The notes beneath the pieces were generated by a model, which made no database searches, was not told where the DNA came from, and worked only from the letters and a program-made list of their open reading frames with translations. Position numbers and translations under genes: made by a program. From assembly GCA_030539615.1 (NCBI GenBank), contig JAUNXU010000010.1:1-32000 (forward strand): DNA of 32,000 nt, given 5' to 3'. Source of the DNA: Methanobacteriaceae archaeon. Its GTDB lineage: Archaea; Methanobacteriota; Methanobacteria; Methanobacteriales; Methanobacteriaceae. Shown in pieces: positions 241 through 32,000 of this stretch (the first letter of the stretch is position 1; every line of letters begins with the position of its first letter).

Positions 241-2175
241 TTATTTTTTGTTACTCAAGATTAAAAGAGTTATATCATCAAATTGTTCAATATCCACCAT
301 AAACTTATTAACATCCCTCATTATATCTTCAGTTATTTCTTTAACATTTTTTGAATGTATATTATTTACTGTTTTTATTAAATTATCTGTTTGATAAAAT
401 TTTCCATATTTATTATTTGCTTCTGTTATTCCATCAGTATACAATATTAATGTATCTTCCAATATTATTTTTGAATGTTCATATCCAATATCTTCAAATA
501 CACCTAATACTAAATTAGATTCTGATTTTAGAAGATGATAATTATCTTTTTCTTTAATTAATGGAGGATTATGTCCAGCATTAGAATATATTAATTCATG
601 AGAATTTATATTATATAATCCTAACCATAATGTTACAAACATAGATTCTTCATTGTTTTCACATAATTGATTATTTGTTTTATATAATATTTCATCAGGA
701 TTATTACCTTGATTTGCAAAACTTTTTATTAAAGCTTGTGTTTTAACTGAAAATAAAGCACCAGGTATTCCTTTTCCAGATGCATCTGCTATAATTATTG
801 CAATTGTTTCATCATCAATATTAAAGAAATCATAGAAATCACCACCAACTTCTTTAGCAGGCTTACTATATGCATATAATTGATAATTATTATTTTTTGG
901 AAAATTTATTGGAAGAATTGATTTTTGTATTTTTTCTGCTATTTTCAGTTCAGTTTGGATTCTTTCTTGTTCTTTAGTTATTTTTTGAAGATTTAATATA
1001 TATTTATTAATATCTTTAGCTATTTTTATATATGCATTTGATAAGGTACCAATTTCATTTTTTTTGTTAATATATTTAGAATAATCTTCTATAATTTTAT
1101 CGGTATTTATTTTTTCATCTGTTTTAACATATTTTGTTGCTTTTGAAAACACTATAATTGGTTTTACAATCTCTTTTTCAACATAATTTAATATCAATAT
1201 TGTAGGAATAAAAAATATAGTTACAATAATATCCATAAACAATAATGAAAATAACTCTATTTGTAAACTAGAACTAACCCCAACAACTTCTAATGAAGTT
1301 AAATATGCAAAAACTCCTGATATTGAAAATAATATTAATGTTAATACTAAGAAAAATAACATTAAATCTTCAATTATTGATATTTGATATTTCTTTTTCT
1401 GAATTTCAAAAATCACAGGTTTTGTTAAATAAACAAGTAAAAATATTATTATAGAATATAAAATATAATTTCCTAAATCCTGATATTTTGGAAATATTAT
1501 TAATGATAATATTAACATAATACTAGTTACAATAAACAATACCTTATATAACTTATTTAAATATTTTCTTTTTATATTAATAGTAGGTAGTTCTAATCCA
1601 ATATTTAACCTATTTGATACAGTTATACCAATAACTCCAAATATAAATGAAAAATTAAATGTATTTAACAAATATTTTAAAGTAAACAATGAATCATATT
1701 GATATCTATCTATATTAATATCCAACATTAATGATACCAATAATGAATAAATTATACTAGTTACCATCAATATTAATATAAATTTTATTATATTATGAAT
1801 ATTACTTAATGAAGGTATTGATTGTTTAGTATCATTTGAATTACCCCATGTATACCATAATTTATAAGGTAAATATGATGCCATTATATTGATTAATGAA
1901 TATGGAATAAGAATTGTTGATGCATAACCTTGTTTAAACCCAATTATTAAATTAGCCAAAACAGTTCCAATTCCACCATATACCCCAAATAATAATCCCA
2001 TACTTGAATGTAAACCAAGATATGGATTTAATCCAACTCCAAAAGGAGTGTGTGTATTTGAAATATCTAAAAATAAATACACCACAATAAACAATGAAAA
2101 AGATACAATTATATGTTTTAAATGAAATATTTTCATTTTAGCATCTTCTTTTATAATAATTAACACCTCTTTCAT
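241..2175 (-). CDS. Membrane-bound PP2C-type (SpoIIE/RsbU-like) serine phosphatase
   Basis: The 644-residue protein has about nine predicted membrane segments (roughly 18-38, 55-78, 85-105, 129-151, 170-186, 209-228, 236-252, 270-292, 306-330), a HAMP-like linker (331-400) and a C-terminal PP2C/SpoIIE phosphatase domain (about 405-642). Metal-site motifs are intact: GGDFYD 444-449, DASGKG 464-469, TDG 580-582 and FDD 632-634, so catalysis is likely. In bacteria such enzymes dephosphorylate a STAS protein; a STAS gene and a GHKL kinase gene lie just upstream on the same strand. The first membrane segments are Gly-rich, slightly like ECF-transporter S-components, suggesting a ligand-sensing role (inference). 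The start is uncertain: ATG 2175 lacks a Shine-Dalgarno site, ATG 2136 (residue 14) has only a weak one, and a GAGGTG lies inside codons 3-4. Confidence 0.85.
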   Translation of the reverse strand: MKEVLIIIKEDAKMKIFHLKHIIVSFSLFIVVYLFLDISNTHTPFGVGLNPYLGLHSSMGLLFGVYGGIGTVLANLIIGFKQGYASTILIPYSLINIMASYLPYKLWYTWGNSNDTKQSIPSLSNIHNIIKFILILMVTSIIYSLLVSLMLDINIDRYQYDSLFTLKYLLNTFNFSFIFGVIGITVSNRLNIGLELPTINIKRKYLNKLYKVLFIVTSIMLILSLIIFPKYQDLGNYILYSIIIFLLVYLTKPVIFEIQKKKYQISIIEDLMLFFLVLTLILFSISGVFAYLTSLEVVGVSSSLQIELFSLLFMDIIVTIFFIPTILILNYVEKEIVKPIIVFSKATKYVKTDEKINTDKIIEDYSKYINKKNEIGTLSNAYIKIAKDINKYILNLQKITKEQERIQTELKIAEKIQKSILPINFPKNNNYQLYAYSKPAKEVGGDFYDFFNIDDETIAIIIADASGKGIPGALFSVKTQALIKSFANQGNNPDEILYKTNNQLCENNEESMFVTLWLGLYNINSHELIYSNAGHNPPLIKEKDNYHLLKSESNLVLGVFEDIGYEHSKIILEDTLILYTDGITEANNKYGKFYQTDNLIKTVNNIHSKNVKEITEDIMRDVNKFMVDIEQFDDITLLILSNKK

Positions 2176-2195
2176 TACATTATTTATTTAAATAA

Positions 2196-2576
2196 TTATA
2201 TTCCAATTAAAATAGTTAATTTATTTAAATTATCAACATATTCATAAGAAATTTCATAAGCATATTTTTTAACTAAATAAATACCCAAACCACCAATTTT
2301 CCTTTGATCTAATGATGAATCTACATCTTGATCTTTCACAGATTTAGGATTAAAGGGAATACCATCATCAATAAATTGAATTTTTATTAGATCCCCACAT
2401 ACATCTAAAAAGTTTACTTGTATAAATGTAGCATTAGAATAATTAACAATATTAACAAATACTTCCTCTAATATTATTTCAATAGGAAATGTATTATCTG
2501 TTACTATTAAAGATAAAATAAAATTATTCAAATTATCTAATTCTTTTTTATCTGGTTTTAATAATAATGTCCTCAT
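2196..2576 (-). CDS. RsbW-like serine kinase / GHKL ATP-binding protein
   Basis: This 126-residue protein is essentially one GHKL ATPase domain. The N box is ILEEVFVNIVNYS (E38 and N42), the G1 box is DDG 70-72, and the G2 box is GGLGIYLVKK from residue 95. There is no His-phosphorylation or sensor domain, so it matches the free-standing anti-sigma kinases (RsbW/SpoIIAB/RsbT type) that phosphorylate a STAS partner on serine. The start is supported by an AGGGTGAT Shine-Dalgarno site at about 2580-2587. It ends 20 nt before the phosphatase gene, so the two are probably co-transcribed. Archaea have no sigma factor, so what this kinase binds apart from the STAS protein is unknown. Confidence 0.8.
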   Translation of the reverse strand: MRTLLLKPDKKELDNLNNFILSLIVTDNTFPIEIILEEVFVNIVNYSNATFIQVNFLDVCGDLIKIQFIDDGIPFNPKSVKDQDVDSSLDQRKIGGLGIYLVKKYAYEISYEYVDNLNKLTILIGI

Positions 2577-2796
2577 TTAATCACCCTAAACTAAAAAAAA
2601 TATAATCAATTATTATAAATATAAATATTACTCTTTTTTCCTAATAAAAATTCATTTAAACTTAATAGTATACTATATAATTTTTAAGTTAAATATTTAG
2701 TTAAGTAAAATACAAATAAATCATGTTTTTAAAAATTCTTATAAAAAAAAATTATTAACAAGAATGAATATTTAAAATAAAATTAAAAATCTAGAA
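2577..2796. other. 220-nt gap inside the partner-switching set
   Basis: AT-rich DNA with no supported gene. Read on the minus strand it holds TATA-like sequence around 2665-2690 (for example AATTATATAG), so the kinase and phosphatase genes may have their own promoter separate from the STAS gene. No strong hairpin was seen. Confidence 0.3.
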
Positions 2797-3099
2797 TTAT
2801 TTTATATTTAATACTTTAACAAATCCTGATATTTCAAATATTTCCATTAAAATATCATTAACATTTATAATAACCATATTTTTATTAGATTTATTTAACT
2901 TTTTTTGTGTTGATATTAATAATCTTAAACCAGCACTTGATATGTAATTTAATTCTTTAAAATCAAAAATAATAGAATTATATTTTTTTAAATCATCAGA
3001 AATATCGTTTTGGAGTTTTGAAGAGGTATTTGTATCTAATCTACCAGTTACAAGAATTTTTAATGTATTTTCATTTTTAAAATCTTTTTTAATTTCCAT
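2797..3099 (-). CDS. STAS-domain anti-anti-sigma-like protein (RsbV/SpoIIAA type)
   Basis: A 100-residue single STAS domain. The conserved loop YISSAGLRLL at 52-61 carries the serine pair (S54, S55); in SpoIIAA/RsbV the second serine is the one phosphorylated by the partner kinase and dephosphorylated by the PP2C phosphatase. The length matches free-standing STAS antagonists. The start at ATG 3099 is supported by a GGGGGAT ribosome-binding site (3105-3111). It is the first gene of the set in transcription order, followed by a 220-nt gap, the GHKL kinase and the phosphatase. The family assignment is firm; the partner-switching role in this organism is inferred from the neighbours. Confidence 0.85.
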   Translation of the reverse strand: MEIKKDFKNENTLKILVTGRLDTNTSSKLQNDISDDLKKYNSIIFDFKELNYISSAGLRLLISTQKKLNKSNKNMVIINVNDILMEIFEISGFVKVLNIK

Positions 3100-3342: not shown

Positions 3343-3419
<77 letters not shown>

Positions 3420-3465
3420 ATTATTATAAACAAATGTAAATTCCAAATATATTTCCATATTTAGA

Positions 3466-3549
<84 letters not shown>

Positions 3550-3622
3550 TAGTAAATATTAATTTTCTATTATAACGGCTTAAAATTATAAAAGAAAATA
3601 TTCGTTAAAATCAAATAAGTAA

Positions 3623-3697
3623 TGCTCCGACCGGGATTCGAACCCGAGTCTTCGGCTCGAAAGGCCGAAATGATTGGCCGGACTACACTATCGGAGC
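3623..3697 (-). tRNA. tRNA-Glu (TTC)
   Basis: A 75-nt cloverleaf: acceptor GCTCCGA/TCGGAGC, anticodon stem TCGGC/GCCGA with loop CTTTCGA (anticodon TTC), T loop TTCGAAT, discriminator A, no encoded CCA. In archaea this type of tRNA serves glutamate decoding and, in methanogens, tetrapyrrole synthesis through glutamyl-tRNA reductase (general knowledge). Confidence 0.95.
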
Positions 3698-3710
3698 ATA
3701 AATATACTAT

Positions 3711-3789
<79 letters not shown>

Positions 3790-3799
3790 GAATTAATAA

Positions 3800-3872
<73 letters not shown>

Positions 3873-3919
3873 ACATCAATTACATTTAATTACAGTACAA
3901 TAAACTATTTATTTTTAGT

Positions 3920-4139: not shown

Positions 4140-5183
4140 ATGACTATGGATTTAATTAACAAAATAAAAAAGCATGAAATATTAGATATGCTAGAAGAAT
4201 CAGATAAAATAACTTTAAAAAATCATGGAAATAAAATTAGTCTTGAACGAGCAATTTTCTTATCTTGGTGGTGTAATAAAGGTGATTGTAAATTTTGTTA
4301 TATGTCTTCTCAAAAAGATCGTATTGAAAAATCATCTAAAAAAGATAATACTCCCGAATCTGATAAAGCTAAAAGACATATAAAAGGAATTTATGCTGAA
4401 GCTGAACTTACTAAACGTATGGGATGGAACATAGAATTCTTATCTGGAGGATATGGTGCATATTCCACTAGTGAAATTCAAGAAATTTGTCAAAATATTT
4501 ATGATATAACTGATAATCCTGTTTGGCTTAATATTGGTATTACAGAAGATCTTGAAGAATATGGTGAAGAAATTATTGGAGTAACAGGAGCTGTTGAAAC
4601 AGCAAATCCTAAATTACATGAATATATTTGTCCAAGTAAATCATTAAATGACATTAGTAATATGTTACTAAAAGCTGGTGATTTAGGTTATAAAAAAGCT
4701 ATAACAATTATTATTGGATTAGGTGAAACTCCTGAACAGTTAGAAGATTTATTTGAATTAATAGAAAGACTTTCTATTGATAGAATAATTTTTTATTCAT
4801 TGAATCCACACCCTGATACAATGTATGCTGATACACCTCAACCTGCTTCATTTTATTATGCGGGAATGGTAGCTGCAGTTAGAATTAGATTTCCTAATAT
4901 TGAAATTATTACTGGTACATGGACTGATAATTTAGCTAATATTGGATTATTATTAAAAGCTGGATCTAATGGAATTACTAAGTTTCCTTTATTTAAAATG
5001 TATGGTAATCGTTATGGTAAACGTGTTGAAGAAGAAATTAAATGGTCTAATAGAGAATTGATTGGAAGTTTTTCGGATATGGATCGTTTAAAAAGTGACA
5101 TTGTTTTACGACCAGAACTTGAACCATATATTCAACGTTATATTGATATGTGTTATAAAAATCTTAATATCAAAAAAATTTAA
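4140..5183 (+). CDS. Radical SAM protein, BioB/HmdB-like
   Basis: The 347-residue protein has an iron-sulfur cluster motif at C45, C50 and C53. The spacing is CX4CX2C, not the canonical CX3CX2C, and the last Cys is followed by Y as in many family members. A GGYG segment near residue 105 fits the SAM-binding glycines. VETANPKLHEYICPS (about 152-166) resembles the ET-S/N motif of biotin-synthase-like enzymes, and GLGET near 197 fits a further SAM-contacting strand. It most resembles the biotin-synthase-related radical SAM proteins of methanogens; the substrate cannot be told. ATG 4140 follows AAGGATT; ATG 4146 is an alternative. It stands alone, 141 nt before gatB, and diverges from the tRNA cluster. 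Confidence 0.8.
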   Translation: MTMDLINKIKKHEILDMLEESDKITLKNHGNKISLERAIFLSWWCNKGDCKFCYMSSQKDRIEKSSKKDNTPESDKAKRHIKGIYAEAELTKRMGWNIEFLSGGYGAYSTSEIQEICQNIYDITDNPVWLNIGITEDLEEYGEEIIGVTGAVETANPKLHEYICPSKSLNDISNMLLKAGDLGYKKAITIIIGLGETPEQLEDLFELIERLSIDRIIFYSLNPHPDTMYADTPQPASFYYAGMVAAVRIRFPNIEIITGTWTDNLANIGLLLKAGSNGITKFPLFKMYGNRYGKRVEEEIKWSNRELIGSFSDMDRLKSDIVLRPELEPYIQRYIDMCYKNLNIKKI

Positions 5184-5202
5184 TTAAAAGTTAATATTAA
5201 AG

Positions 5203-5222
5203 TAGGATATATAAATATATAT
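5203..5222 (+). promoter_or_regulatory. TATA-rich promoter candidate for the gatB operon
   Basis: AGGATATATAAATATATATA lies about 100 nt before the gatB coding region and 20 nt after the radical SAM stop. It contains overlapping TATA matches, so the exact box and start site cannot be fixed. Confidence 0.35.
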
Positions 5223-5324
5223 AGAATAATATGAAGAATTAATTTTCAAATAATTTTTTTAATTCAATATGATACTTAATCACTAAATTTAATTTTTTAA
5301 TTGGAGGAATTTATTATTACAGAT

Positions 5325-6680
5325 ATGATGTGTGGACTTGAAATCCACGTTCAATTAGCAACAGAATCTAAATTATTTTGTAGTTGTCCAACAAATTACC
5401 AATCAGCACCTGCAAATACAAACATATGCCCAACATGTTTAAATCAACCAGGGGCAAAACCTTATCCACCTAATCAAACAGCATTAGATAGTGCTATAAA
5501 AGTAGCATTAATGTTAGGTTGTGAAATAAGTACTGATACAGTTTATTTCCAAAGAAAACACTATGATTATCCTGATTTATCTTCAGGTTATCAAAGAACT
5601 AGTGTTCCAGTAGGTCATCATGGAGAACTTAATGGTGTTCGTATATTAGAAGTTCACGTTGAAGAAGATCCAGGACAATATAAACCAGATCTTGGAACTG
5701 TGGACTTTAATAGATCAGGAATAGCATTAATAGAAATTGTAACAGAACCTGATATGAAATCTCCAGAAGAAGCAAGAAATTTTTTAAATGAATTAATACG
5801 TGTGTTAAATTATAGTGGAAGTGCTCGTGGAGAAGGAACTATGAGAGCTGATGTTAACATTTCAATTGAAGGCGGTAAACGTGCAGAAGTTAAAAATGTT
5901 AATTCTATTCGTGGAGCTTACAAAGTTCTTAAATTTGAACTTATTAGACAAAAAAATGTTTTAAGACGTGGACAAACTGTTCAACAAGAAACAAGAGCTT
6001 ATCTTGAATCTCAAATGATCACTGTTCCAATGAGACTTAAAGAAGATGCTGATGATTATAGATATATACCTGATCCAGATCTTCCACCATTAAAATTTGA
6101 TCCAGAACATGTTAAAGAAATAAAAGAAAAAATGCCAGAACCAGCTCATCTTAAAACTGAACGTTTTGTTGAAGAATATGGTATATTACATGATGATGCA
6201 AAAGTTTTAACATCTGAACTTGAATTAGCAGATGCATTTGAAGAAGTATGTAAAAAAATTAAACCTGAAGATGCAGCTACTTGGATGAGAGATGAATTAA
6301 AAAGAGTTCTTAATTATAATAAATTAGCATATTCTGAAAGTGGTATTTCTACTGATAATATTATAGAGATATTAAATTTAATTAATGATAAAAAAATAAC
6401 TCCCGAAGCAGCACATAAATTAGTTGAAAAAATGCCTAATAATTCTAAAACACCTACTGAAATTGGTAAAGAAATGGATGTTATAGGTGTTGCTGATGAT
6501 GATCTTATTCAAAAAGTTGTTATTCAAGTTATTGATGAAAATCCAGAAGCAGTAGCTGATTATAATGAAGGTAAAGGTAATGCACTTAATTATCTTGTAG
6601 GACAAGTTATGAGATTAACTCGTGGAAAAGCTAATGCAAAACAAGCAAACAATATGTTAAAAGAACAGTTAGATAAATAA
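5325..6680 (+). CDS. gatB: Aspartyl/glutamyl-tRNA amidotransferase subunit B
   Basis: GatB is the subunit of GatCAB that phosphorylates misacylated Asp-tRNA(Asn) (or Glu-tRNA(Gln)) and transfers ammonia from GatA. Archaea normally use GatCAB for Asn and GatDE for Gln. The family signature CGLEIHVQL is at the N terminus, followed by the cradle-domain stretches RKHYDYPDLSSGYQ, VEEDPG and FNRSGIALIEIVTEPD, and YRYIPDPDLPP. The C-terminal part (about 300-451) is the helical YqeY-like tail that contacts tRNA. With ATG 5325 the protein has 451 residues, normal for the family. The start is odd: GGAGG sits at 5303-5307, 17 nt from this ATG, and TTG 5301 overlaps it. It heads an operon with the CBS gene (30-nt gap) and hisE. 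Confidence 0.95.
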   Translation: MMCGLEIHVQLATESKLFCSCPTNYQSAPANTNICPTCLNQPGAKPYPPNQTALDSAIKVALMLGCEISTDTVYFQRKHYDYPDLSSGYQRTSVPVGHHGELNGVRILEVHVEEDPGQYKPDLGTVDFNRSGIALIEIVTEPDMKSPEEARNFLNELIRVLNYSGSARGEGTMRADVNISIEGGKRAEVKNVNSIRGAYKVLKFELIRQKNVLRRGQTVQQETRAYLESQMITVPMRLKEDADDYRYIPDPDLPPLKFDPEHVKEIKEKMPEPAHLKTERFVEEYGILHDDAKVLTSELELADAFEEVCKKIKPEDAATWMRDELKRVLNYNKLAYSESGISTDNIIEILNLINDKKITPEAAHKLVEKMPNNSKTPTEIGKEMDVIGVADDDLIQKVVIQVIDENPEAVADYNEGKGNALNYLVGQVMRLTRGKANAKQANNMLKEQLDK

Positions 6681-6710
6681 AAAAATTTAATTTGAAGAAG
6701 GTGTTAAACT

Positions 6711-7529
6711 ATGGCAGAATTTAACAAAGTAAAAAATTATATGACAAAAGACGTCATAACTGTAACTGAAGACACAACACCTGTAGAAATACAAAATATG
6801 ATAAAAAAAACAGGACATGATGGGTTTCCTGTTCAAAATAATGAAAATAAAATAGTTGGTATTGTTACTGCATCTGATTTAATAACAAAAGATTTTACTC
6901 CAACTATTAGAGATATGATGTCAACAGATATTGTAGTTGCTAATGAAGAATTAACAATCAATGATGCTGCTAGAGTTATGTTCAGAATGGGTATTTCTAG
7001 ATTACCTGTAACTAATGAAGAAGAAGGTGTAATTGGTATTATTACAAATACTGATATTTTAAGAAGTCATATTGAAAGATCTACACCTACAAAAGTTAAT
7101 CAATTTAGAACATCTTTAGAACAATTATATAATATTAAAACTACCCTTCATGAAGAAAATGTTCCTATAAAGTTAATGAAACCTACTCAAGATAAAATTT
7201 ATGCTGATGAATTACAAGGAAGAACATATGAAATTGAGAGAGGTCTAGCTGAACCTGTTATTCTTGTAAAAACTAAAGATAAATATGTTGTAGTTGATGG
7301 ACATCATCGTATTGTTGCTGCTTATCAAAAAGGGTATGATAAAATTGGTGCTTATGTTATTCAATTAAGTAAAGATATTAAATTAGGTCTTGAAAAAACT
7401 GCTGAAAAGAATAATATATTTTCATTAGATGATATTGAAATTATTGAAGATGCTCAACATCCATTAATTGCTATTACAGACAGTATAAAAAATCAAAATA
7501 AAGAAAAGAATAAGAAAAAAGGGATATAA
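6711..7529 (+). CDS. CBS-pair protein fused to a ParB/SerK-like domain
   Basis: The 272-residue protein begins with two CBS domains (about 8-60 and 65-123), which bind adenine nucleotides in many proteins. A linker follows, then a ParB/sulfiredoxin-fold domain (about 150-235) with the diagnostic DGHHR at 196-200. DGHHR occurs in the ADP-dependent serine kinase SerK of Thermococcus and in SbnI, which descend from ParB-like proteins and phosphorylate free serine. That points to small-molecule kinase activity rather than DNA partitioning, but the substrate is an inference. The C terminus is Lys-rich. The start has a strong GAAGGTG site (6697-6703). It lies between gatB (30 nt) and hisE (0 nt), clearly in one operon. 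Confidence 0.8.
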   Translation: MAEFNKVKNYMTKDVITVTEDTTPVEIQNMIKKTGHDGFPVQNNENKIVGIVTASDLITKDFTPTIRDMMSTDIVVANEELTINDAARVMFRMGISRLPVTNEEEGVIGIITNTDILRSHIERSTPTKVNQFRTSLEQLYNIKTTLHEENVPIKLMKPTQDKIYADELQGRTYEIERGLAEPVILVKTKDKYVVVDGHHRIVAAYQKGYDKIGAYVIQLSKDIKLGLEKTAEKNNIFSLDDIEIIEDAQHPLIAITDSIKNQNKEKNKKKGI

Positions 7530-27283: not shown

Positions 27284-28654
27284 TTAAATACCATCTAAAT
27301 TATTTTCAGAATGTCTAATAAATAACTTAAATGCAAAGTAAGACATGACAGAACCTATAGTTACACCCACTATTAAACCCCACCAAACACCTTGTTCTCC
27401 AAAGTTTAATACAAAACCCAATATATATGAAAATACTAATACAAATATTAATTCTCTTAACACAGTTAATACAAGTGATATTGTTCCTTTTCCAACCCCT
27501 TGGAATAAATATGCAGCTATTGCACCAACTGGTATTGGTAATAAGAAAAGACATATTACTCTTATAAAACTTTCTAATTGTAATAATAATACAGGATCTC
27601 CTGAATATGCAAAGATATATGCTATTTGTGGAGATAATACATACATTAATGCAGTTATTATAATAGACATTAATAACCCTATTTTTATAGAATAATTTAA
27701 AGTTATTTTTAGATTTTCAAAATTTTTAGCACCATATGCAACACCACCTACTGTTAATGCAGACATTGCCAACCCTAATGCTGGAACCATTCCTAATGAT
27801 ACTATTCTCCACCCCACAGTAAATACTGCTACAGCAGTTGTTCCAGCAATTATAGTTAACATTAAATTTATAACCATTGCAACAATTTGTATTATTATTT
27901 CTTCCAAACTTGATGGAATTGATACAGATATTATATCCTTTACAATTTTAGAATCATATATAAATTCATTTAAATTTAAATCCAAATATAAATCTTTTTT
28001 TACAAGTATCCAATAAAATATAATAACAGCTGATACCAATGATGAAAGTACTGTTGCTATTGCTGCACCAGCCATTCCCCATCCAAACACATATATAAAT
28101 ATTGGATCTAAAATCATATTTAATACTGAAGTTAAAGCCATAATTATTGTTGCTCTTTTTACATCACCTTCACCACGTAATATTGCTGAACCCATCATTG
28201 AAAAAAATACTGTAAATGAACAAATAAATACAATTAAACCATACTCTTTTGCTATTGATAGGACTTTCTGTGCACCCAATGCTACTAATAATGGATCAAT
28301 AAAAATTACAGCCAATATAGGTATTATTATAGATAGTATAACCATCAACAAAATAGAATGTAATCCAGCATTATTTGCTGTTTTTTTATCATCAGCTCCA
28401 ATACTTCTTGCAATTAATGATGTTGCTCCTACACCCATCCCAGTTCCAATACCAATTAATATCATATATACAGGAGAAATAAAACCTAATGCAGCTAATG
28501 CATCAGTTCCTAATCCAGCCACCCATATACTATCAACTATATTATATGCCATTATCAAAATAAAAGAAAGCACCATAGGTACTGCTAATTTAACTATTGC
28601 TTTTTTTGGATCTCCTGTTATTAAATCTACCCCATTGGTTGTTTCATTAACCAA
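27284..28654 (-). CDS. MATE-family efflux transporter
   Basis: A 456-residue membrane protein with 12 predicted helices in two similar halves, typical of MATE cation antiporters that export drugs or metabolites using Na+ or H+ gradients. Family features include DPKKAIVKLAVPMVLS at the N terminus, YNIVDSIWVAGLGTDALAALGF (helix 1-2 region) and ATSLIARSIGADD. The gene starts with TTG: GGAGGT (28662-28667) is 7 nt from TTG 28654 and no ATG occurs until residue 27, inside the first helix. Its substrate cannot be told. It is on its own, 89 nt downstream of the YbjQ genes' far end. Confidence 0.92.
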   Translation of the reverse strand: MVNETTNGVDLITGDPKKAIVKLAVPMVLSFILIMAYNIVDSIWVAGLGTDALAALGFISPVYMILIGIGTGMGVGATSLIARSIGADDKKTANNAGLHSILLMVILSIIIPILAVIFIDPLLVALGAQKVLSIAKEYGLIVFICSFTVFFSMMGSAILRGEGDVKRATIIMALTSVLNMILDPIFIYVFGWGMAGAAIATVLSSLVSAVIIFYWILVKKDLYLDLNLNEFIYDSKIVKDIISVSIPSSLEEIIIQIVAMVINLMLTIIAGTTAVAVFTVGWRIVSLGMVPALGLAMSALTVGGVAYGAKNFENLKITLNYSIKIGLLMSIIITALMYVLSPQIAYIFAYSGDPVLLLQLESFIRVICLFLLPIPVGAIAAYLFQGVGKGTISLVLTVLRELIFVLVFSYILGFVLNFGEQGVWWGLIVGVTIGSVMSYFAFKLFIRHSENNLDGI

Positions 28655-30097: not shown

Positions 30098-32000
30098 TTA
30101 GGTTATTGTTAGTGTACTGTTTGTTCTTGTTTCTTGGTTGTTTTTTGTTTCTCCGTACATGATTGTGATGTTGTGTGTTCCTTTTTTGTATGTGTTGTTG
30201 TTGATTGTGTATGTGATTATTCCGTTTTTGTCGGGTGTTAGGTTGTTTGTTAGTGTTTTTTGGTTGATTTTGATTCCTGTTTTTCCGTTTGTTAGTGGTT
30301 TTTGTGTTTGGTTATTGGTTATTTTTGCTGTTATTGTAAATGGTGTTTTTTCGGGTATTATTAATGGGTTTGTTGTTATGTTTGTTGGTGTTTTTTGTAG
30401 TGTTAGTGTGGTGTTGGTTTCTGTTCTTTGGTAGTTTTTGTCTGAGAGTACTGCTGTTATTGTATAGTTTTTTGCACTGTAGTTTTTGGGTATTGTGTAT
30501 GTTAGTGTTGCTTTTCCATTGGTGATGTTTGTTTTTCCTATGGTTTTTTGATTGATTTTGTAGATTATTGTTCCGGTGTTTAGTGGTGTTCCTTTCATAT
30601 CTGTGATGTTTGTGGTTAGTTGTATTGTTGTTCCTGCATATCCTTTTATGGGTGTTATTTGTATCTTGGCTTGTTTTTTGGTTAGTGTTAGTGTGGTGTT
30701 AGTGGTTGCTTTTGTGAATATATTATTTTCCCCATATATTACGGTTATTGTATAATTTTTGCTTGTGTAGGTGTTGGGTATTGTGTAGTTTAGTATGGCT
30801 TGTCCATTTGTAGTGTTTGTTTTTCCTATGGTGTGTCCGTTTAGTTTAAATGCTACAAGTCCTGTTATGGTTTGGTTTCGTGTGTTGGTTATGTTTGCTG
30901 TTATTTGTATGTTGTCTCCTGCTTGTGCTACTATTGGATCTATTAGTATGGTTGTTGGTATTTTGTTTATTGTGAAGTTGGTTGTTACTATTGATTCTAC
31001 ATATTGTGTGTCTCCACTATATGCTGCTATTAGTGTATATTCACCTAATGGAAGATCTCTTAGTGTCTTGTTTTCGTGTATTTTTTCTGTTGTTGTTATT
31101 GTTTTTCCATCTAGTATGTATGTTATTGTTCCTGTTGCATTTATGGGTAGGTATGGTGCTATTGTTATATTGTCTCCTATGTAAAATGGAGGTGTTAATA
31201 CATCAATTGTAAATGTGGTGTCAGATTCTACTGTGAAGTATATTGTATCTGTACTTGGTAGGTATTGGGTGTTTCCTGTATAGGTTCCTGTTATGTTATG
31301 TTTTCCTATGGATAGTCCTGTTATTGTTATGGTTTCTTTGGTGTTTCTTGTTTGGTAATATTTACCATCTAGGTAGTAGGTTATTGTTCCGGTTGCTTCT
31401 GTTGGTGTTAAAGTAGGAATAATTTTCATAGTTCTTGTTGGTGAAATAATTAATGGCTGAATACTTAATGATAAATTAGTATCTAATTTTCCAATATATA
31501 ATATTATTGAATCATTACTAGGATTATACTTATCAGTTACTCCACTGTAAACTAATGATATGTTATATAATCCTGGAGTATATCTTGATATATTTAATAA
31601 TCCTTTACCATCTTGAATATTCACAGTTTTAAAAGGCGTACTATTTAAAGATATTGTTACATTACCTTCATTTAATAAGTACTCCTGATCATTTATTAGT
31701 ACAGTATTTGTTATTATTATTAATTCATCATGTTTACTATTGTTTATACTTGTTATATTAGTAGTAGTACCTGCTTTTAGTATAATCCAATCTGTTATAC
31801 TACTTGATGAATTGAATTTATTGTTACCATGGTATGTTATATTTATCTTGTATGTTCCTGCTATGAGTTTTGTTATGTTGATTGTGTTTAATGTCCATTG
31901 GATCATTCCAGTATTGTTTAATATTTGTGTGTTATTGTATATTACTTGTGTATTGTTTATTATGTATAATGTGGCATTACCATCTACTGGGATGTTAAGT
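30098..32000 (-). CDS. Adhesin-like surface protein with Ig-like repeats (5' part outside window)
   Basis: The frame is open from the right edge to TAA at 30098, giving at least 633 residues; ATG 31906 is internal, since about 31 codons upstream continue the same Asn/Thr-rich pattern. The protein consists of tandem Ig-like (Big_3 type) domains of about 85-97 residues. Numbered from Met 31906, units begin near 43, 141, 228, 316, 412 and 506, after a partial one. Recurrent signatures are ATGTITYxLDGK, YSGDTQY, IGKTNxTNGxAxLxYTIP and KNYTITxxY. The chain is rich in N-x-S/T. It ends right after the last strand, with no membrane helix or sorting motif. It belongs to the adhesin-like proteins abundant in gut Methanobacteriales; the binding target is unknown. 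Confidence 0.85.
   Translation of the reverse strand, partial: LNIPVDGNATLYIINNTQVIYNNTQILNNTGMIQWTLNTINITKLIAGTYKINITYHGNNKFNSSSSITDWIILKAGTTTNITSINNSKHDELIIITNTVLINDQEYLLNEGNVTISLNSTPFKTVNIQDGKGLLNISRYTPGLYNISLVYSGVTDKYNPSNDSIILYIGKLDTNLSLSIQPLIISPTRTMKIIPTLTPTEATGTITYYLDGKYYQTRNTKETITITGLSIGKHNITGTYTGNTQYLPSTDTIYFTVESDTTFTIDVLTPPFYIGDNITIAPYLPINATGTITYILDGKTITTTEKIHENKTLRDLPLGEYTLIAAYSGDTQYVESIVTTNFTINKIPTTILIDPIVAQAGDNIQITANITNTRNQTITGLVAFKLNGHTIGKTNTTNGQAILNYTIPNTYTSKNYTITVIYGENNIFTKATTNTTLTLTKKQAKIQITPIKGYAGTTIQLTTNITDMKGTPLNTGTIIYKINQKTIGKTNITNGKATLTYTIPKNYSAKNYTITAVLSDKNYQRTETNTTLTLQKTPTNITTNPLIIPEKTPFTITAKITNNQTQKPLTNGKTGIKINQKTLTNNLTPDKNGIITYTINNNTYKKGTHNITIMYGETKNNQETRTNSTLTIT

Follow-up and report, generated by a model that had tools for sequence, protein, structure and literature searches.

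The RsbU-RsbV-RsbW and SpoIIE-SpoIIAA-SpoIIAB switches of Bacillus and the locus described here share three protein families, the motifs of these proteins and the clustering of the genes. The locus differs from the Bacillus systems in its archaeal host, archaea having to our knowledge no sigma factors, and in its likely targets, which are a MATE exporter with a GHKL tail that lacks the G2 box and GH3 or NRPS synthetases. Partner switches that do not act on sigma factors are known from bacteria: SiaA/B/C/D of Pseudomonas aeruginosa and the Moorella stressosome modules consist of a PP2C phosphatase, a GHKL kinase and a STAS-like protein. These modules resemble the switch proposed here in having an enzyme instead of a sigma factor as output. 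Their output is a second-messenger enzyme, whereas here it would be a transporter together with a synthetase for amides or peptides, both bearing switch domains.

Such a trio has been described in archaea before. A SpoII-type trio was reported in Methanomicrobiales and said to be absent elsewhere, and its target was left open (PMC2686161). The same trio is present in the methanogens studied here, where SpoIIE was found in 85 of 151 genomes of the order Methanobacteriales and a candidate target can be named; all 85 genomes belong to one family, Methanobacteriaceae, and a search across the whole phylum added one further genome. The trio also lies near NRPS genes in M. ruminantium: neighbourhoods mru0066-0071 and mru0513-0516 contain a serine phosphatase, an antagonist, a kinase, a PPTase and MatE, for which roles in sensing the environment, in regulating the expression of NRPS genes and in export were suggested (PMC2812497). 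The available part of that account makes no mention of a MATE-GHKL fusion, a GH3 link, a family-wide test or a bacterial counterpart. The planctomycete OlsH, a bacterial GH3 homologue, makes an acyl-amino-acid amide (PMC12493201); it is a GH3-type amide synthetase, as here, and the accessible portion of that paper mentions no partner switch. In the literature consulted, mostly papers readable without subscription, neither the MATE-GHKL fusion nor the GH3 link nor the cross-domain cassette was found described.

The window, by which we mean the whole stretch of 32,000 nucleotides that was analysed, comes in our judgement probably from a Methanosphaera and contains the trio near its start:

241-2175, minus strand: membrane PP2C phosphatase of the RsbU/SpoIIE type, 644 aa (PF07228, 159 bits, E = 1.3e-46; AlphaFold model)
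2196-2576, minus strand: stand-alone GHKL Ser/Thr kinase of the RsbW/SpoIIAB type, 126 aa (PF13581 HATPase_c_2, 43.6 bits, E = 3.7e-11)
2797-3099, minus strand: STAS protein of the RsbV/SpoIIAA anti-sigma-antagonist type, 100 aa (TIGR00377, 65.7 bits, E = 3e-18; PF01740, 55.3 bits, E = 6.4e-15)

An earlier interpretation made from the letters of the window (the sequence-only reading) had placed a STAS protein, a GHKL kinase and a PP2C phosphatase on the minus strand, all with intact motifs. Re-reading of the ORF coordinates bore out the positions and the strand, and alignments bore out the motifs. The STAS protein has the phospho-acceptor loop SSAG (S54, S55), which is common to 46 of 61 relatives, 11 others having SSSG. 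The kinase has its N, G1 and G2 boxes (EExxxN, DxG and GGLG, motifs common to 52 relatives), and the metal-site motifs of the phosphatase (GGDFYD, ADASGKG, YTDG and DD) include residues that are invariant or nearly so across 42 homologues.

The matches to PF07228, PF13581, PF01740 and TIGR00377 exceed the curated cut-offs, but none of the three proteins passed the RsbV, RsbW or SpoIIE equivalog cut-offs of NCBIfam, and we therefore regard them as members of the kind rather than as RsbV, RsbW and SpoIIE themselves. The kinase matched RsbW models alone in NCBIfam, with scores below the RsbW cut-offs. Since its phmmer matches to PDB sequences were marginal GHKL matches, its identity rests on Pfam and on the motifs.

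The phosphatase is built of an N-terminal membrane sensor, a coiled coil and the C-terminal PP2C domain (residues 454-641), with a HAMP-like linker, spotted by eye, at about 333-380. Its AlphaFold model (pLDDT 86.6) matches the fold of the phosphatase domains of RssB, SpoIIE, the RsbU part of Rv1364c and SiaA, with RssB, SpoIIE and RsbU as its nearest PDB counterparts; the PDB structures met in the comparisons included the SiaA phosphatase and 3zt9. In the membrane sensor (residues 1-270) an FGPYGALGA-like motif is kept in the homologues. One of the 42 homologues weakly matches an ECF riboflavin S-component there (E = 0.0022), a match that does not establish the identity of the sensor.

The nearest PDB matches of the STAS protein were 4hyl and SpoIIAA. 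In the alignment S55 stands opposite SpoIIAA S57, and A56 opposite SpoIIAA S58, which we take to be the phospho-serine of SpoIIAA. The residue at the S55 position is presumably the acceptor in RsbV (S56). The alignment and the RsbV position together make S55 a likelier phospho-acceptor than S54. Directly upstream of the STAS gene, at 3344-3873 on the minus strand, lie five tRNA genes (His, Leu, Glu, Met, Asn), an array that may be an integration-prone site for the switch locus.

The window starts at the end of contig C105 of its genome (G000:C105). The sequence-only reading, which could not see what lies beyond the contig end, took positions 1-192 for the tail of a probable histidine kinase; that assignment had to be replaced when a matching gene was found at the end of another contig, C98, of the same genome:

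1-192 of the window, plus strand: last 63 residues of a protein that fuses a MATE exporter to a GHKL domain, truncated by the contig end
7204-8773 of locus L144 (C98): first 523 residues of the MATE-GHKL protein, with a HATPase half-domain at C98:8623-8766
5147-7177 of locus L144 (C98), directly upstream of the MATE gene: STAS-GH3 fusion, 676 aa (GH3, PF03321, E = 2.1e-66)

C98 ends inside the fusion gene, after the MATE part and the first half of the GHKL domain, and C105 opens with the second half. The ends overlap by 4 bases (TATA), the reading frame continues across them (DIRIKY/YKNTKN), and intact relatives of 586 and 582 aa cover both halves with no gap; this overlap and the continuity of the protein suggest that C98 and C105 are adjacent. 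The part before the half-domain matched MatE (PF01554, E = 3e-25) and no histidine-kinase family. It has no H-box or DHp, and on these grounds a histidine kinase was rejected, a rejection that holds if the join holds. The AlphaFold model of the MATE-GHKL protein has a pLDDT of 86.9.

Given the join, the locus reads STAS-GH3 and MATE-GHKL in one direction, followed by PP2C, kinase and STAS in the opposite one, and an amide-forming synthetase and an exporter stand in the same locus as the switch. The STAS-GH3 protein consists of a STAS domain with an SSSG loop and a complete GH3 amide-synthetase domain. This fusion was found in this draft genome only, and so could reflect a lost stop codon. An NRPS of about 1665 aa (L152, G000:C17) and a second, solitary GH3 (L153, G000:C7) are encoded away from the switch locus. 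At the far end of the window (30098-31999, minus strand) lies a gene for a large adhesin-like protein with repeated bacterial Ig-like domains (Big_3_5).

Of the 151 Methanobacteriales genomes, 72 from Methanobacteriaceae were used to read the loci. Conservation of the trio in related genomes, on which the sequence-only reading had staked its proposal, was observed: in 49 of the 72 the STAS, kinase and PP2C genes form a cluster, each within four genes of the others. Two arrangements recur. In the first, MATE-GHKL comes after an NRPS gene; this pair usually diverges from STAS-kinase-PP2C, and a 4′-phosphopantetheinyl transferase gene often stands behind the phosphatase. The second comprises STAS, a GH3 gene or a pair of them, MATE-GHKL or ABC exporters, kinase and PP2C. 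MATE-GHKL was found in 31 sampled genomes; an NRPS gene is no more than two genes away from it in 21 of them, and a GH3 gene in 8. GH3 was found in 18 genomes, and in 16 of these a STAS or kinase gene lies within two genes of it.

Fusions involve every component: PP2C-kinase, GH3-kinase, MATE-GHKL and, in the own genome, STAS-GH3. Four related genomes encode a GH3 joined to an intact kinase domain, and phosphatase-kinase fusions are found beside a STAS gene. Large STAS-domain proteins of 824 and 427 aa are encoded in or near two related loci (L165, G142:C69, and L180). In L098 and L097 (genomes G122 and G121) the phosphatase gene is broken into two frames and is apparently decaying. G122, which is 99% complete, has no NRPS, and no STAS gene adjoins its kinase gene; decay of the switch along with its client would give this picture, which was seen in one genome.

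The conservation in the family and the phosphatase-kinase fusions beside STAS genes lend good support to an archaeal partner switch without sigma output, as had been proposed; the bacterial output on sigma does not apply. We propose that the trio is a sigma-free partner switch that governs how a small amide or peptide product is made and exported, and we put the probability of this reading at about 0.55.

The main rival is that the switch acts on transcription of the NRPS or GH3-MATE cluster by way of an archaeal regulator, in which case the GHKL domain on the MATE protein would merely report the state of the exporter. The association of trio and cluster could equally reflect such control. The same trio in bacteria usually ends in control of transcription, trio and NRPS gene often diverge from a common intergenic region, and regulation of NRPS expression is what the available part of the M. 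ruminantium account proposed (PMC2812497). However, the surroundings of the trio in related genomes showed no transcription factor as a conserved part of the clusters, a TetR gene being nearby in some; the families that recur there are mainly those of syntenic genes (YcaO, TfuA, M24 peptidase, DUF4013). The switch domains, moreover, are fused to synthetase and pump, not to DNA-binding proteins. We consider transcriptional control unlikely, though it deserves more weight than the other alternatives.

Another alternative is that trio and synthetase clusters, being accessory genes or gained by horizontal transfer, merely accompany each other in larger genomes and are not coupled in function. Genomes that carry the trio are indeed larger on average (2.2 Mb versus 1.8 Mb without it). 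SpoIIE and NRPS occur together in 73 of the 151 genomes, SpoIIE alone in 12, NRPS alone in 6 and neither in 60; the 12 genomes with SpoIIE and no NRPS, nine of which also have no GH3, speak against the proposed reading. When permuted within genus-by-genome-size strata, the association persisted with p of about 2e-4, and it held for genomes at least 90% complete, whereas the restriction gene HsdM, an accessory control, showed no association in the same strata (p = 0.96); these p values, like the one below, are indicative only, as genomes within a genus remain related. For this control (PF02384) the strict threshold E ≤ 1e-100 was chosen after E ≤ 1e-3 had proved too common (142 of 151 genomes). 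Co-occurrence of GH3 and SpoIIE was weak after the same stratification (p = 0.11), and the case for GH3 therefore rests on linkage and fusion.

That the genes can move is apparent from a scan of named genomes for the GH3 family, which gave 80 loci, 13 archaeal and 67 bacterial. The hosts were Methanobrevibacter, Candidatus Methanovirga, Methanomethylophilaceae, many gut Clostridia, Bifidobacterium pongonis, Atopobiaceae and Spirochaetaceae. All 13 archaeal loci but only 21 of the 67 bacterial ones have switch genes no more than four ORFs from GH3, and the low bacterial share weighs against the proposed reading; clusters that combine GH3 with these switch genes were found in Lachnospiraceae, Bifidobacterium and Methanomethylophilaceae. 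Among 83 other neighbours in the bacterial and Methanomethylophilaceae clusters the commonest Pfam family was that of RimK-type ATP-grasp ligases, and no sigma factor was among the 25 most frequent families. Four loci of Lachnospiraceae and Eubacterium (L208, L210, L213, L231) encode a GH3 of about 850 aa with roughly 280 extra residues. In a quick GH3 tree, with long branches and an unsure placement of L144, archaeal and bacterial sequences interleave (at least five forced changes), and the genes thus probably moved between domains. Such mobility favours co-travel, but hitch-hiking would not lead one to expect the repeated domain fusions or a tail confined to cluster MATEs. Complete MATE proteins beside NRPS or GH3 carry the GHKL tail, with one exception in which it is very eroded (L273); those outside such clusters (L104, L270 and the MATE at 27284-28654 of the window) have none. 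The tail-finding HMM misses the tails of L131, L136, L160 and L164, which are visible in the alignment. Taken with the stratified result, this makes co-travel improbable.

The tails themselves bear on a third alternative, in which the MATE tail is an active kinase acting on STAS and the STAS-GH3 enzyme is the sole output, switched by phosphorylation of its STAS domain. STAS is directly fused to GH3 in the own genome, and in the alignment of 37 MATE tails the N-box Glu is retained in all 37, the N-box Asn in 33 and the G1 Gly in 36. The first two glycines of the G2 box (GGLG) are missing in all 37, however, and the lid is shortened; the trio kinases retain these glycines in 52/53 and 53/53 cases, and a separate, intact kinase is encoded in the same locus. 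An active tail is accordingly a poor candidate. SpoIIAB and RsbW models match several of the tails, and an RsbW-like domain that lacks the G2 box is, from its motifs, a natural candidate for a STAS docking site. The MATE parts resemble the natural-product exporters WgkD, MbnM and SolL of the tryglysin, methanobactin and solanimycin clusters, below family cut-offs where these are shown. A reading in which positions 1-192 end an ordinary histidine kinase, and in which the trio stands on its own and serves in general stress, is very improbable: the tail is of the GHKL type and long HATPase-domain proteins are common in related genomes, but the matching N-terminal piece is a MATE and the intact relatives are MATE-GHKL proteins of 582-600 aa. 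Anti-phage defence was also considered and rejected, as PADLOC gave no match for the trio, GH3 or MATE.

For the sigma-free switch that we favour, we infer phosphorylation, binding partners, direction of effect and nature of the product as follows. The kinase would phosphorylate STAS proteins, probably the trio STAS at S55 and also the STAS part of the GH3 fusion. Upon sensing its signal, the membrane PP2C would strip the phosphate from STAS. Unphosphorylated STAS would bind the RsbW-like tail of the MATE exporter, a GHKL domain without the G2 box. This docking would recruit the synthetase or activate it; in the own genome it would bring the attached GH3 amide synthetase to the pump, with the result that synthesis and export of the product would be switched together. 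A gate at the protein level is the simplest output, because switch domains are physically attached to both synthetase and pump. It had been suggested that the kinase releases something other than a sigma factor or that the switch acts through the STAS protein; the direction of this suggestion was right, but it missed the likely target, a MATE with an RsbW-like tail together with a GH3 or NRPS synthetase. That phosphorylation-controlled docking of STAS, alone or fused to a synthetase, on the G2-less domain of the MATE protein gates the synthesis and export of natural products in gut archaea and gut bacteria alike is a tentative model, held with less confidence than the switch itself.

The role of anti-sigma kinase systems in organisms without sigma factors has been a question in print since 2009 (PMC2686161), and the locus offers a testable answer to it. 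The trio marks a family of predicted secreted peptide or amide clusters in gut methanogens, with the regulator encoded alongside, and the cassette of switch and synthetase is a shared feature that connects archaea and bacteria of the gut community. If the docking model is true, a membrane exporter would be a new kind of partner-switch output.
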